In this document: positions 6,459 through 12,855 of the stretch, one piece after another | How the letters are laid out: every line of letters starts with the position of its first letter | Position numbering within the stretch: position 1 is the stretch's first letter | Source of the DNA: Levilactobacillus tongjiangensis | GTDB lineage: Bacteria > Bacillota > Bacilli > Lactobacillales > Lactobacillaceae | Direction of reading: 5' to 3' | Length of the DNA: 64,000 bases | Assembly (NCBI RefSeq): GCF_003946345.1 | Contig: NZ_RHNY01000005.1 | Location: forward strand, 1 to 64,000 | Made by a program: the position numbers and the translations under genes | The notes under the pieces: model-generated | Databases searched by the model: none | What the model was told of the DNA's origin: nothing | What the model saw: the letters and a program-made list of their open reading frames with translations, nothing else

Positions 6459-8189
6459 TCATTTAACCACGTCTGGTGCGACCGCTTGGACCATCGTGAT
6501 AACCTCCTGGCTAGTGCTGGCCGAATTTAAGACGGTTTCCACTAAGGACGCCAAGTCATGGGCCTTCAATTGCCCAATCAACTCACGCGTCCGGCCAAGT
6601 TCATTGGCTCCCATTGAGAACTCATCAAGTCCCATCCCCAACAATAGCGGTACGGCAATCGGGTCACCTGCCATTTCGCCACACATCGCCACTGGAATAC
6701 CGGCCGCATGACCGGCCCGAATAATACTATCGATCAACCGTAAGACGGCTGGATGATAGGGTTGATACAGGTAGGCCACGTCAGGATCTGTTCGATCTGC
6801 GGCTAACGTATATCCAATGAGATCGTTGGTTCCAATACTCATGAAATCCACTTCTTGGGCAAAGCGGTCCGCTAAGATTGCTGCTGCTGGAACTTCAATC
6901 ATCATCCCCACGTGAACTTGCCCCAAGGGAATATTGGCAGCCGTCAGCTGCGAACGCTCATCATTGTAAATAGCTTTGGCCTGCCGAAACTCATCCAGCG
7001 TTGAAATCATTGGAAACATAATATTAAGGTTGCCGTACGCCGACGCCCGCAAGAGTGCCCGCAGCTGACTGCGAAACATTTGCTGATGCGCTAAGCTTTG
7101 GCGAATAGCTCGTGCTCCCAGGAATGAGTTTTCTGTTTGACCAGCCACCTGATACGGTAAGGATTTATCCCCACCGATGTCTAGTGTCCGCATGACCACG
7201 GGACGTGGCGCTAATTTCTGCAAAATATCACGGTACGCCACGAACTGTTCGTCCTCGGAGGGTAATGAATCGGTCTGCATATAGAGGAACTCCGTCCGGA
7301 ACAACCCCACTGCCTCGGCACCACCTTGAATAATGGCCGGCAAATCGGCAGCCGTTTCCATATTCGCGGCCAGCAGAACGTCCACCCCATCCTTCGTTAA
7401 GGTACCGTGATTCGGCTGTTCCGCTAGCTTGGCGGAATTGGCACGCTGCTTGGCCATCGTCACCTTAGCATGGTAAAGCTCGGCTGAACTCGGTCCCAAC
7501 GTAATGTTGCCTAGCTTCCCGTTCATCACGATTGTTTCGCCATCCCGCAGTTGCGTGGTCGCTGTTTGTGCGCCGACCACCGCTGGAATGCCCTTGGCCC
7601 GGGCCAACAACGAAACGTGCGCGACACGACCACCCAAGTCCGTAATGATCCCCAGGATATTCGACATGTCGGTTGGAAAGGCCTCATTAGAGACCAGTTC
7701 ATGGGCCACCAAGATAACGGGTCGATCAATCAACGCAATATCAGGTAACTTGACCCCCAACAAATGAGCAGTCAAGCGTTTCGTCACTTGGTGCAGTTGG
7801 GTCAACCGTTCTTCCAAATATGGATTATCCTGCAACGGCTGGTCGACTGTTTCTAGTTGCTCGACAGCTCGACTCAGTGCCACCTCAGCGTTGAGTCGTT
7901 GTTCATTAATAATCTGCTCAACACGTTTGACGAGTTCAGGATCCTTTAACATGGAAATTTGGTGACAAAAAACCTGAGCACCATCAGCGCCCAGGTTCTT
8001 CGTTACGCGAGTTTTAATCGTCTCAACTTCCGAGGTAGCAGCGTCAAGGGCCTGATGGAATCGTGTCAATTCGTAATCAAGATTTTTGATTGACCGGGGG
8101 GCACAGCTGAGGTCTGGATCAACCAGTCGGTAGACCGGCCCACAGACCACACCGTCACTCGCGGCAATTCCCTTGAGCATCGCTCTCAT
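6459..8189 (-). CDS. ptsI: Phosphoenolpyruvate-protein phosphotransferase (Enzyme I)
   Basis: General PTS enzyme that takes phosphate from phosphoenolpyruvate and passes it to HPr. The 576 residues contain an N-terminal HPr-binding/phosphohistidine domain with the active His in GGRVAHVSLLAR (about residue 190), and a C-terminal PEP-binding barrel with LDIGGDKSLPY, MFPMIS and the catalytic Cys of AMCGEMAGDP (about 502). Length is normal. The start ATG overlaps the ptsH stop (TAATG), implying translational coupling; a second in-frame ATG three codons later (8180) is an alternative start. It is co-transcribed with ptsH and closed by a terminator at 6366-6406. The residues around the active His are V-A-H-V-S-L-L rather than the commoner T-S-H-x-A-I-M, a modest variation. 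Confidence 0.95.
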   Translation of the reverse strand: MRAMLKGIAASDGVVCGPVYRLVDPDLSCAPRSIKNLDYELTRFHQALDAATSEVETIKTRVTKNLGADGAQVFCHQISMLKDPELVKRVEQIINEQRLNAEVALSRAVEQLETVDQPLQDNPYLEERLTQLHQVTKRLTAHLLGVKLPDIALIDRPVILVAHELVSNEAFPTDMSNILGIITDLGGRVAHVSLLARAKGIPAVVGAQTATTQLRDGETIVMNGKLGNITLGPSSAELYHAKVTMAKQRANSAKLAEQPNHGTLTKDGVDVLLAANMETAADLPAIIQGGAEAVGLFRTEFLYMQTDSLPSEDEQFVAYRDILQKLAPRPVVMRTLDIGGDKSLPYQVAGQTENSFLGARAIRQSLAHQQMFRSQLRALLRASAYGNLNIMFPMISTLDEFRQAKAIYNDERSQLTAANIPLGQVHVGMMIEVPAAAILADRFAQEVDFMSIGTNDLIGYTLAADRTDPDVAYLYQPYHPAVLRLIDSIIRAGHAAGIPVAMCGEMAGDPIAVPLLLGMGLDEFSMGANELGRTRELIGQLKAHDLASLVETVLNSASTSQEVITMVQAVAPDVVK

Positions 8190-8455
8190 TAGTCAGACAA
8201 ACCCTCTTTTTTCATTGTTTCAGCCACAGCACTCATGGCGTCAGCTTCGTCATCACCGTCAGTCGTAATGGTAATGTCAGCATTTTGGCCAACACCCAAG
8301 GACATAACACCCATGATAGACTTCAAGTTAACGGACTTGTCTTGGTACTGCAAGCTAACTTCAGAGTTGAACTTGCTGGCTGCTTGTACTAATAAAGTTG
8401 CGGGACGTGCATGGATTCCAGTTTCTGCTGTAACATGAAATTCGCGTTTTTCCAT
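8189..8455 (-). CDS. ptsH: Phosphocarrier protein HPr
   Basis: Small PTS phosphocarrier of 88 residues. The catalytic His15 sits in GIHARPA, and the regulatory Ser46, target of HPr kinase/phosphorylase in Gram-positive bacteria, sits in [12 protein letters not shown]. Both sites are intact, so it should act in sugar transport and, as HPr-Ser-P, as CcpA corepressor. I place the start at ATG 8455 because AAAGGAGA lies upstream and the protein then has canonical length; the open frame extends 29 codons further without homology. Its stop overlaps the ptsI start. Confidence 0.96.
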
Positions 8456-8619: not shown

Positions 8620-8823
8620 TTAAGATTCCGCATCTTCACCAGCGTCATGATCGTAGTGATAGATGAGTTGGCCGTTCTTTTCAGCCTGACCCACGACTCG
8701 CTTTCTGGTTTCAAATGCCATGAAGGCCCGCTGAAACGCGGGAAACTCAGCGGGCGTTACCGTAAAACTATCTATTTTCTTATCCTTTAATTGGTTCATT
8801 AAATCGGTATAGTCTTTATCCAA
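8620..8823 (-). CDS. Small hypothetical protein
   Basis: I do not recognise this protein beyond a conserved small lactobacillus type. The sequence is soluble, charged and alpha/beta-like (SFTVTPAEFPAFQRAFMAFETRKRVVGQAEKNG... region), with no signal peptide, cysteines or known motif. I prefer a TTG start at 8823 (67 residues), because AGGGGTGG lies about 5 bases upstream and the predicted promoter at 8854-8882 would leave the ATG at 8853 outside the transcript. It diverges from clpE, and the intergenic region carries a CIRCE-like operator, so heat-shock control of this gene is an open possibility. Confidence 0.6.
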   Translation of the reverse strand: MDKDYTDLMNQLKDKKIDSFTVTPAEFPAFQRAFMAFETRKRVVGQAEKNGQLIYHYDHDAGEDAES

Positions 8824-8853
8824 CTCGCCACCCCTATTCTTGATGCCTTTCAT

Positions 8854-8882
8854 ATTCTACGGTGAAAATCGCCTTAGGTCAA
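8854..8882 (-). promoter_or_regulatory. Promoter of the small gene at 8620-8823
   Basis: On the minus strand TTGACC (8877-8882) and TAGAAT (8854-8859) are separated by 17 bases. Transcription would begin near 8847, which supports the TTG start at 8823 over the upstream ATG at 8853. Confidence 0.5.
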
Positions 8883-8917
8883 AAATTTAGCAATTTCTCA
8901 AAAATGTGGTCGTCATT

Positions 8918-8944
8918 TTAGCATTCTACCTACGAGAGTGCTAA
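8918..8944. promoter_or_regulatory. CIRCE-like HrcA operator
   Basis: TTAGCATTC, nine bases, then GAGTGCTAA. The HrcA operator CIRCE is TTAGCACTC-N9-GAGTGCTAA, so only one of 18 arm positions differs and the spacer length is exact. It lies between the divergent promoters of the small gene (about 36 bases from its -35) and clpE (about 60 bases from its -35), which is farther from a start point than usual. Confidence 0.75.
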
Positions 8945-9003
8945 AATGTAGTCGTTCGCTGGAAATAGCCCAGCTACCGGGATTCATCTGCCAAACAAAA
9001 TAC

Positions 9004-9031
9004 TTGCAAGGCGAGTTGAACGCGGTATAAT
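9004..9031 (+). promoter_or_regulatory. clpE promoter
   Basis: TTGCAA (9004-9009) and a perfect TATAAT (9026-9031) with a 16-base spacer. The CtsR heptads begin three bases after the -10, so repressor binding would block initiation. Confidence 0.75.
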
Positions 9032-9033
9032 GT

Positions 9034-9057
9034 GGTCAATGGTCAAGAAAGGTCAAA
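9034..9057 (+). promoter_or_regulatory. CtsR operator
   Basis: Three direct heptads: GGTCAAT (9034-9040), GGTCAAG (9041-9047), then AAA and GGTCAAA (9051-9057). The last two with the 3-base spacer fit the CtsR consensus (A/G)GTCAAA-NAN-(A/G)GTCAAA. It overlaps the presumed transcription start of clpE. A third, abutting heptad is unusual and could strengthen binding. Confidence 0.85.
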
Positions 9058-9122
9058 CGGCTTTTTGCAACGACCGCGTGGGGTTTCCCACGAGAATTCC
9101 AGGCAAGAAAGGAGACGACAAG

Positions 9123-11366
9123 ATGCTATGTCAAAATTGCCACCGCAATGAAGCAACAATTCACCTCTACATGAGTGTGAACGGGCAGCGGCAACAAGTT
9201 GACCTATGCCAAAATTGTTACCAACTGCTTAAGCAGCAACAAAACGATTCTGGAAATGGAGGTGGCCGTATGGCACAAGATCCATTCGGCTTTGGTAACC
9301 TGGATGATATTTTCCGGGCCATGCAAGGCGGAAACAATAACCAAGCAGATTACCGGCAATCTTCCGCACAAAACGGTCAGCCAACCCAACCATCCGGCGG
9401 TCAGGGTTCCGGCGGGAAGGGCCTACTCAGTCAGTACGGCTTAAACCTGACGCAACTCGCTAAGGATGGTAAGATTGACCCCGTCATTGGTCGGGACAAA
9501 GAGACGGCTCAAGTCATCGAAATTCTCAACCGCCGGACTAAGAACAACCCCGTTTTAATTGGGGAAGCCGGTGTTGGGAAGACTGCGGTCATCGAAGGTC
9601 TTGCGGAACGCATTGTCGAAGGCAACGTTCCCGAAAAACTTGCCAATAAACAAATTATCCGCTTAGACGTCGTTTCACTGGTTCAAGGAACCGGGATTCG
9701 AGGTCAGTTTGAACAACGGATGCAACAATTGATGAAGGAAGTTCAATCTAGTCCTGATATCATCCTGTTCATTGATGAAATTCATGAAATTATGGGTGCT
9801 GGAAATGCCGAAGGTGGCATGGACGCTGGCAATGTTTTGAAACCCGCCCTCGCCCGCGGCGATTTCCAATTAATTGGGGCGACGACGTTAAACGAATACC
9901 GCGACATTGAAAAGGACCAAGCCTTAGCACGGCGGTTCCAACCCGTAACGGTGGACGAACCTAGCGCTGACGAAGCGATTGAAATCTTAAAGGGTATTCA
10001 AAAGAAGTATGAGGACTACCACCACGTTCACTACACGGATGACGCCATTGAAGCCGCCGTTCGGTTATCCGATCGGTACATCCAAGACCGTTACCTGCCT
10101 GACAAGGCCATTGACCTATTAGACGAGGCTGGGTCTCGGAAGAACCTGACGATCAACGTGGCTGATCCAAAAGCGATTGATGAAAAGATCAAGTCAGCTG
10201 AAGACCAGAAGCAAGCAGCTTTGAAGCAGGAAGACTACGAAAAAGCCGCCTACTACCGTGATCAAGTCACTAAGTTAGAGAAGTCCAAGGAATCCGCAAC
10301 GAACGCGTCTGATAACCAGTCCGCTGAGGTCACCGTCAAGGACATGCAGGACATCGTTGAAGAAAAGACGTCCATCCCTGTTGGTGAATTACAGGCTAAG
10401 GAACAACATCAACTGCAGAGCTTGGCCCCTGACCTTGAGAAACACGTCGTTGGTCAAAATGAAGCTGTCGACAAGGTTGCTCGAGCTATCCGTCGTAACC
10501 GGATCGGTTTAAACGGAACGGGTCGACCAATTGGCTCCTTCCTGTTCGTTGGACCTACTGGTGTTGGGAAGACGGAATTAGCTAAGCAATTAGCTAATGA
10601 GCTCTTTGGTTCAGCCGATGCAATGGTACGTTTCGACATGTCTGAGTACATGGAGCCGCATTCCATTTCTAAGTTGATTGGGTCCCCACCTGGCTATGTT
10701 GGCTATGAAGAAGCGGGCCAATTAACCGAACAAGTTCGGCGCCACCCGTACACGTTGATTCTGTTGGATGAAATTGAAAAGGCGCACCCGGACGTCATGA
10801 ACATGTTCTTACAAATTCTTGACGACGGTCGCCTGACCGACTCACAAGGTCGGACTGTTTCCTTCAAGGACACGCTGATCATTATGACCAGTAACGCCGG
10901 TACCGGAGATGCCGAAGCCAACGTTGGTTTTGGTGCCGCCGCTGAAGGAACCACCCACTCAGTCTTGGGCAACTTGACCAACTACTTCAAGCCAGAATTT
11001 TTGAACCGGTTCGACGATATTATTGAATTCAACTCACTCAGCAAGGAAAACTTGATGAACATTGTTGATTTGATGATTGGCGACGTTAACCAGATGTTGG
11101 CTGGCCAAGGCCTCCACATCCACGTAACGGAACCCGTTGAAGAGCAACTGGTGGCTAAGGGTTACAACCCTGCCATGGGTGCGCGACCACTCCGGCGAGT
11201 GATTCAAGAAGAAATTGAAGACCGTATCGCTGACTTCTACCTCGACCACAGTGACGTTAAGAACTTAGTTGCTAAGATTGAGGATGGCAAGATTACTCTG
11301 GCCGCCGATAATGACGCCCCAAAGCCTTCTGCTGAAACTAGTGACGATGCTTCATCTTCCAAATAA
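9123..11366 (+). CDS. clpE: ATP-dependent Clp protease ATP-binding subunit ClpE
   Basis: Hsp100 unfoldase that delivers misfolded proteins to ClpP and takes part in disposal of the CtsR repressor. The 747-residue protein has the ClpE-specific N-terminal zinc finger (CQNC near residue 3 and CQNC near 29), a glycine/glutamine-rich linker, a first AAA+ module with GEAGVGKT (about 147) and LFIDEIHE, a UVR-like coiled segment (about 358-388), and a second AAA+ module with GPTGVGKT (about 477) and [12 protein letters not shown]. The C-terminus is an acidic serine-rich tail. I chose ATG 9123, preceded by AAAGGAG, where the zinc finger begins; the frame is open from 9030 but the extra part overlaps the CtsR operator. 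Regulation by CtsR and perhaps HrcA is visible upstream. Confidence 0.95.
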
Positions 11367-11748: not shown

Positions 11749-12855
11749 ATGGCATTTTTTGACTGGCTACGTAATCTGATTGAACCTAATCAGAAACGCC
11801 CCGCTCGGCGACCACGACACGCCATTCAACGACCACAACGGTCACTGGATTCTGCCCCACATGAACCGACGGTAACCCCAGCGCCAAGTGCCACGCCCGT
11901 TACCCCACCCATTCAATTGACTAAAAATCCTGATTTTTACGTCTCTGAACAACCGCAAGCTTTGCCCCAAGCGACGTTAGTTATTCGCTTAGTGGATATT
12001 CATGACCAGGCCCTCCAACCGGCACTTGTGCTGACAGGTAACCTGGGTAGCTCGGTTCATTTTCACTTTCCCGAAATCTCAGGCTATGCGCTCTGGGACA
12101 TTCACGGGTTCACGCAAGACTTCATCTCCCCCTACGGTCTGACGACGTTAATCTATGACCGTTGCTGGGGCCAACCGGTGATCAGCTACTTAGTCGACTT
12201 CGACTCCGGAAAGCTGTTACAGCTTCCCGTAATTCATCGCGGCCGGTTAGACGAAAGCTTCTCCCTAACCCCTCCTGACCTGGCCAACTACCATATCTTT
12301 CAAGCACAGGGCCGTCAACGGGGCATCTTTACAGATCAGACCCAACAGGTGGTTTACTTTTACCGACGTAAGTCCTGGCAAACGGTCCAACGCGTTCATC
12401 AATTTGTCCGTCTGACCACCGACCATGACGTCTTCGACGAACCAGCCGGCCAGCTCTACGGTTACCAGTTCCCGGCAACCTCGTTGTGGCGCCTATTTGG
12501 CATCATCACGCTAACCGATGGGAGCGTGTGGTACAACCTAGGTGGTGAGCAGTGGCTGAACGCAACCGAGACGACCACCCAGGACCACCGGCAAACGACG
12601 CCGGAATTGCCGCACCGTCGTAACTGGCAACCCCAACCATTCAACCAGATGGGAACCGTCGATTACGTGCCGGGCAAGTCTGTCTCCTACTATCAGGAAC
12701 CTTACGGTGAAGTGGCTGGTCAACTTAAGCATGGCACCGACCTAGACATTCGTGTCCGCATCGTTGATGACCAGCGTCTAGTCTGGTTCCAGATTGGACC
12801 AGACGCTTATATCAACGCCCGTTACGTGAAATTAGCCCCTACTGAAACTATCTAA
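11749..12855 (+). CDS. Hypothetical protein with MucBP-like and SH3-like regions
   Basis: Protein of 368 residues that I cannot assign to a named family. After a basic N-terminus and a proline/threonine-rich linker (about 20-75), there is a beta-rich region of about 80-185 that resembles MucBP-type repeats (ISYLVDFDSGKLLQLPV), then a central region, and a C-terminal part (about 305-365) with an SH3-like pattern (VDYVPGKSVSYY...LVWFQIG...YINARYV). Such domains are usual in surface proteins, yet there is no signal peptide, membrane helix or LPXTG, only the amphipathic start FFDWLRNLI. It could be cytoplasmic or exported by another route. SD GGAGGTG precedes the ATG. It is monocistronic between two terminators. 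Confidence 0.6.
   Translation: MAFFDWLRNLIEPNQKRPARRPRHAIQRPQRSLDSAPHEPTVTPAPSATPVTPPIQLTKNPDFYVSEQPQALPQATLVIRLVDIHDQALQPALVLTGNLGSSVHFHFPEISGYALWDIHGFTQDFISPYGLTTLIYDRCWGQPVISYLVDFDSGKLLQLPVIHRGRLDESFSLTPPDLANYHIFQAQGRQRGIFTDQTQQVVYFYRRKSWQTVQRVHQFVRLTTDHDVFDEPAGQLYGYQFPATSLWRLFGIITLTDGSVWYNLGGEQWLNATETTTQDHRQTTPELPHRRNWQPQPFNQMGTVDYVPGKSVSYYQEPYGEVAGQLKHGTDLDIRVRIVDDQRLVWFQIGPDAYINARYVKLAPTETI

Follow-up and report, generated by a model that had tools for sequence, protein, structure and literature searches.

Predicted control of clpE by both CtsR and HrcA in Levilactobacillus, and the distribution of their operators in the Lactobacillaceae

The window analysed here, a 64-kb stretch of a genome of 2,718,164 bases, contains clpE together with a predicted promoter (P1) and sequences resembling the operators of two heat-shock repressors, CtsR and HrcA (Table 1). 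The clpE product belongs to the ClpE (Hsp100) proteins by the features listed in the table; a Pfam profile search matches AAA, AAA_2 and UVR, the CxxC pairs were noted by eye, and no NCBIfam Clp model reaches its cut-off among the 25 matches listed. ClpE is 94% identical to proteins of Levilactobacillus suantsaiihabitans and L. angrenensis, and the genome is therefore placed in Levilactobacillus. Residues 1–36 (9123–9230, the N-terminal zinc finger) resemble McsA, a kinase activator, although the score against the NCBIfam model NF053706 (47.1 bits) is below its cut-off of 210. Downstream of clpE is a rightwards-transcribed open reading frame (ORF; 11749–12855) with a MucBP domain, the rest of which is unassigned.

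To the left of clpE, a small ORF and ptsH are transcribed divergently. The small ORF matches no Pfam or NCBIfam family and is found by tblastn in 35/35 genus regions and 92/116 regions from elsewhere in the family; it appears to encode a conserved protein without assigned function, situated between clpE and ptsH. TTG at 8823 is its likelier start because the other candidate, ATG at 8853, lies directly against the −10 box of the divergent promoter.

Table 1. Predicted genes, promoters and operators at the clpE locus (window coordinates).
Feature	Position	Strand	Remarks
ptsH (HPr)	8189..8455	−	Profile search
Divergent small ORF	8620..8823	−	Start taken as TTG 8823, after AGGGGTGG
Divergent promoter TTGACC-17-TAGAAT	8854..8882	−	Promoter scan
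CIRCE inverted repeat, predicted HrcA operator	8918..8944	+	1 mismatch, arm position 7
TGCTAAAAT, candidate extended −10 of putative P2	8939..8947	+	Right CIRCE arm and next three bases
GTTCG block, where the P2 start would fall	8954..8958	+	8954–8957 in 35/35 genus genomes, 8958 in 31/35
clpE promoter P1, −35 box TTGCAA	9004..9009	+	Promoter scan
clpE promoter P1, −10 box TATAAT	9026..9031	+	Promoter scan; 16 nt from −35
Heptad 1, GGTCAAT	9034..9040	+	Abuts heptad 2; RGTCAA intact in 25/35 genus genomes
Heptad 2, GGTCAAG, first half of canonical CtsR operator	9041..9047	+	RGTCAA in 33/35
Heptad 3, GGTCAAA, second half of canonical CtsR operator	9051..9057	+	RGTCAA in 35/35
AGGAG, clpE ribosome binding site	9110..9114	+	Sequence
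clpE	9123..11366	+	Hsp100/Clp ATPase, N-terminal zinc finger, two AAA domains, UVR motif

Of the 241 genomes searched, 225 gave a match to ClpE (E up to 1e-50), and the locus was examined in 35 genus genomes and in 116 genomes of the family outside the genus. The latter represent 32 genera, chosen by hand, mostly with up to five genomes each (eight for genus g13 and 11 each for g5 and g18). The spacing between the −35 and −10 boxes of P1 is the same in all 35 genus genomes.

GGTCAA occurs three times over the clpE promoter (at 9034, 9041 and 9051), as the preliminary description of this DNA reported; the heptads, which start 3 nt past the P1 −10 box, extend over the probable start site. Heptads 2 and 3 together (9041–9057) read GGTCAAG-AAA-GGTCAAA, one mismatch from GGTCAAA-N3-GGTCAAA, and the direct repeat RGTCAAA-N3-RGTCAAA that characterizes the CtsR (class III) regulon is thus present at the promoter, 10 nt past the −10 box. 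Both RGTCAA halves are intact in 33/35 genus genomes, and the other two have one mismatch. With up to two mismatches allowed, 0.79 matches to the pair pattern are expected in a 64-kb window, so that the pair by itself does not exceed chance at that stringency; it carries weight because of its promoter position and its conservation. Genome-wide, GGTCAAA-N3-GGTCAAA with up to one mismatch has five matches, versus none for the reversed pattern. On contig 6, one match stands ahead of a clpB-like gene; a perfect match on contig 34 falls within an M24-family peptidase ORF and is taken as chance, and the remaining matches are on contigs 12 and 42. Heptad 1 is probably auxiliary or dispensable. A fourth GGTCAA (8877–8882) is the TTGACC −35 box of the divergent promoter, read on the other strand.

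The CIRCE element, TTAGCATTC-N9-GAGTGCTAA, matches 17 of 18 arm bases, and so corresponds to the class I (HrcA/CIRCE) operator TTAGCACTC-N9-GAGTGCTAA with one mismatch of 18. Its coordinates and single mismatch had been given correctly in the preliminary description, and the element is conserved in 35/35 genus genomes. No other match with up to three mismatches is present in the window, and at the same threshold 100 shuffled windows contained a mean of 0.01 matches (one shuffle with a match); the CIRCE thus greatly exceeds chance expectation. Its mismatch, at arm position 7 (8924), is common to the genus, with T in 34/35 genomes and A in 1/35, and T or A at this position also recurs in some CIRCE sites of genera g3 and g6. 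The distance from the CIRCE to the clpE −35 box is 59–62 nt in 35/35 genus genomes (sd 0.87; 59 nt at the locus described here); many of the bases between the CIRCE and P1 are poorly conserved, while their number is nearly constant.

A CIRCE that is a relic of former HrcA control, with CtsR acting alone today, would be compatible with the genus-wide arm mismatch, which may weaken binding. However, a relic should decay, whereas the genus elements contain one mismatch in 28/35 genomes and two in 7/35, such that both arms are otherwise fixed in the former and only one more base is changed in the latter, even though the neighbours of the arms are poorly conserved. We regard a relic as very unlikely.

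Both repressors are encoded in the same genome, HrcA (PF01628, E 4.8e-57) and CtsR (PF05848, E 2.3e-34), and clpE therefore has what is expected of a dually regulated gene, with both operators and both repressors present. Genome-wide, there are four CIRCE sites with up to two mismatches, versus one for the reversed pattern, and five with up to three mismatches, versus four for the reversed pattern; the latter count is therefore no evidence by itself. The five are nevertheless not spread at random but are located ahead of hsp20 (PF00011; no mismatches), groES (PF00166; two mismatches), hrcA (PF01628; two sites, with one and three mismatches) and clpE, although the three-mismatch hrcA site weighs little by count. 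Upstream of hsp20 (L002 1501–1555, contig 1) the perfect CIRCE is followed by a minus-strand CtsR-like pair, AGTCAG and GGTCAG (two mismatches), and this hsp20 may also be dually controlled, like hsp1 of Lactiplantibacillus plantarum.

From the sequence, we consider it likely that two heat-shock repressors, CtsR and HrcA, act independently on clpE; the dual control predicted in the preliminary description is supported by the conservation of the operators, their constant spacing and the presence of both repressor genes. Until heat inactivates it, CtsR bound to heptads 2 and 3 would sit across the P1 start region and keep that promoter closed. HrcA needs GroEL/GroES, which unfolded protein occupies on heat; HrcA bound to the CIRCE would lower clpE transcription until GroEL/GroES are so occupied. 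We infer binding and repression, as well as the mode of action of so distant a CIRCE.

Operators at clpE were scored across the family as a CIRCE with up to three mismatches within 450 nt upstream and as a CtsR pair with up to one mismatch within 250 nt of clpE on either strand (four loci, L234, L235, L238 and L239, have no ATG by the start rule and their distances are rough). Of the 116 genomes from the rest of the family, a CIRCE is present in 64 and a CtsR pair in 94; 42 genomes (nine genera) have both and none has neither. Over 20 sets of dinucleotide-shuffled regions, a CIRCE was scored in 0.05 genomes and a CtsR pair in 0.3 on average; in this comparison 93 of the real regions had a CtsR pair, the start codons having been set otherwise in a few loci. 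The preliminary description regarded an additional HrcA site at clpE as unusual, but predicted HrcA sites at clpE are widespread in the family, and the arrangement is common rather than exceptional. In five genomes of genus g6 (L158–L160) the CIRCE and the CtsR pair are separated by anything from 81 to 161 nt, whereas this spacing is constant inside other genera. At Streptococcus plurextorum clpE (L028), a CtsR-type pair on the other strand is preceded by a perfect CIRCE, and the double arrangement therefore reaches past the Lactobacillaceae.

The repressor genes were sought in 80 of 117 genomes (that described here and 79 of the 116). A ctsR gene was found in 58/80 (this genome and 57 others), and the 22 genomes without one are exactly those with only a CIRCE at clpE. 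An hrcA gene was found in 78/80; the two genomes without it both belong to genus g26 and have no CIRCE at clpE.

The CIRCE could in principle serve the small ORF on the divergent side, possibly together with ptsHI, leaving clpE to CtsR alone. Only 35 nt separate it from the divergent sigma-A-like promoter in the window, such a promoter is near the CIRCE in 24/35 genus genomes, and HPr is encoded divergently in 107/116 family regions. However, the other 11/35 have no match to such a promoter, and the CIRCE lies 86 to 1083 nt from the divergent ORF start (more than 200 nt in 14/35), whereas its distance from the clpE −35 box is always within the narrow range given above. The constant distance to clpE and the variable distance to the divergent gene thus indicate that the CIRCE belongs to clpE. 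Moreover, the CIRCE and the −35 box of clpE overlap in 18 of the 22 ctsR-less family genomes, where a CACTTG inside the CIRCE provides a −35-like TTG with a −10-like hexamer downstream; the CIRCE therefore serves clpE there. From the spacing, ownership by the divergent gene is judged quite unlikely.

How HrcA would act from this position is less certain. At this locus the CIRCE overlaps only the putative promoter P2, and its centre is ~107 nt upstream of where P1 transcription is expected to begin, a long way for simple occlusion of P1. HrcA could instead block P2, an upstream promoter with an extended −10 (TGCTAAAAT) in the right CIRCE arm, which HrcA on the CIRCE would occlude; we hold this reading tentatively, at slightly under even confidence, as the likeliest route for HrcA, the other being action on P1 from upstream. 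A promoter scan flags TTAGCA-18-TAAAAT with TG on the plus strand at P2, and finds an equal candidate on the minus strand because the CIRCE is palindromic. The minus-strand candidate is less conserved at its last base (A at 8915 in 24/35 genus genomes), whereas AAT at 8945–8947 is present in 35/35. A further minus-strand −10, TAGAAT, arising from the left-arm mismatch, was dismissed since a good −35 is absent by eye. The GTTCG block sits 9 nt past the CIRCE and has been assigned to no known motif.

The support for P2 is thus one of conservation, and P2 does not appear to be a general rule across genera. AAT follows the CIRCE in two other genera with a distal CIRCE, g3 (4/5) and g6 (5/5), but the distal CIRCE of genera g5, g17, g18 and g22, upstream of the clpE −35 box, has no TGCTAAAAT-type −10. 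These four genera are more readily accommodated if both operators control clpE without P2, with HrcA touching RNA polymerase, or bending or looping the DNA, at P1, and so is the CIRCE-to-P1 spacing, constant within the genus though most intervening bases vary. We consider such action possible, with rather modest confidence. The distance from CIRCE start to CtsR pair start ranges from 40 to 161 nt over the 42 genomes with both, with no pattern seen by eye in the helical phase of the CIRCE relative to P1 across genera, and the AAT and GTTC past the CIRCE, fixed in 35/35 genus genomes, would be explained by P2 but not by action on P1.

On a quick ClpE tree (41 rows, LG+G4, without bootstrap) the ctsR-less state requires three changes (at least two forced by starred branches) and CIRCE presence eight. 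Genome counts are therefore not independent, but the correspondence of operator to repressor had more than one origin. A tentative scheme, which we think somewhat doubtful as a whole, is that clpE in the Lactobacillaceae keeps at least one heat-shock operator, the set following the repressors still present. The upstream CIRCE with its own HrcA-controlled promoter would be an additional input, through which control of clpE could shift to HrcA on loss of ctsR, the CIRCE now lying on the clpE promoter in most ctsR-less lineages.

Among clp genes, Streptococcus salivarius clpP is reportedly in a 'dually regulated class' under CtsR and HrcA, to go by the title of Chastanet and Msadek 2003; it is a clp gene under both repressors, but clpP and not clpE. 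The portion of PMC6305308 available treats genes under both CtsR and HrcA as a known class, and describes the two regulons as distinct in Bacilli. In L. plantarum WCFS1 at 28°C, hsp1 (lp_0129) is 5.57-fold up without ctsR, 3.16-fold up without hrcA and 12.7-fold up without both, and is the one gene called dually controlled in the accessible text of PMC3842655; Russo and others put it forward as perhaps the first hsp gene with dual control in lactic acid bacteria (PMC3472708, in part). Like clpE here it is a heat-shock gene with CtsR and HrcA operators, but it encodes a small heat-shock protein and its double control has been tested, whereas that of clpE is a sequence-based prediction. L. plantarum clpE is CtsR-controlled, as is predicted for the clpE described here, being 2.27-fold up without ctsR, but differs in its indifference to loss of hrcA (−1.02-fold at 28°C); lp_1268, whose number adjoins that of clpE (lp_1269), is a weak predicted HrcA target (same portion of PMC3842655). 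Two Lactiplantibacillus clpE loci, from species other than L. plantarum, lack a CIRCE within 450 nt even when five mismatches are allowed, which agrees with that lack of response.

Bacillus subtilis clpE has two sigma-A promoters and CtsR sites that are numerous and vary in number; its strong response is ascribed to the number of these sites, and it is the most affected (extracts of PMC12634643). It resembles clpE here in its many CtsR sites and differs in having no HrcA. The third abutting heptad singled out as unusual in the preliminary description is real but intact in just the 25 genus genomes noted in Table 1, and variation in CtsR site number has, as stated, precedent in B. subtilis. Lactobacillus gasseri clpL is reported to be under HrcA (cited in the part of PMC6503756 available), and is thus an HrcA-controlled clp gene of a lactobacillus, but clpL rather than clpE. 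Oenococcus oeni, with ctsR present and hrcA and CIRCE absent according to the same portion of PMC6305308, is resembled by the two g26 genomes. In the open-access literature, as far as its accessible text extends, no report of a CIRCE at a lactobacillar clpE was found, closed-access papers and regulon databases being outside the scope. clpE looks like a new member of the dual CtsR/HrcA class, which may already be in print.

These observations suggest that lactobacilli commonly place a Clp ATPase under HrcA, and that rules drawn from L. plantarum WCFS1, in which hsp1 alone was called dually controlled, may understate the reach of HrcA. The most useful part is that the operators follow the repressor genes, and clpE offers a clean case for how a gene passes between repressors when a regulator gene is lost.
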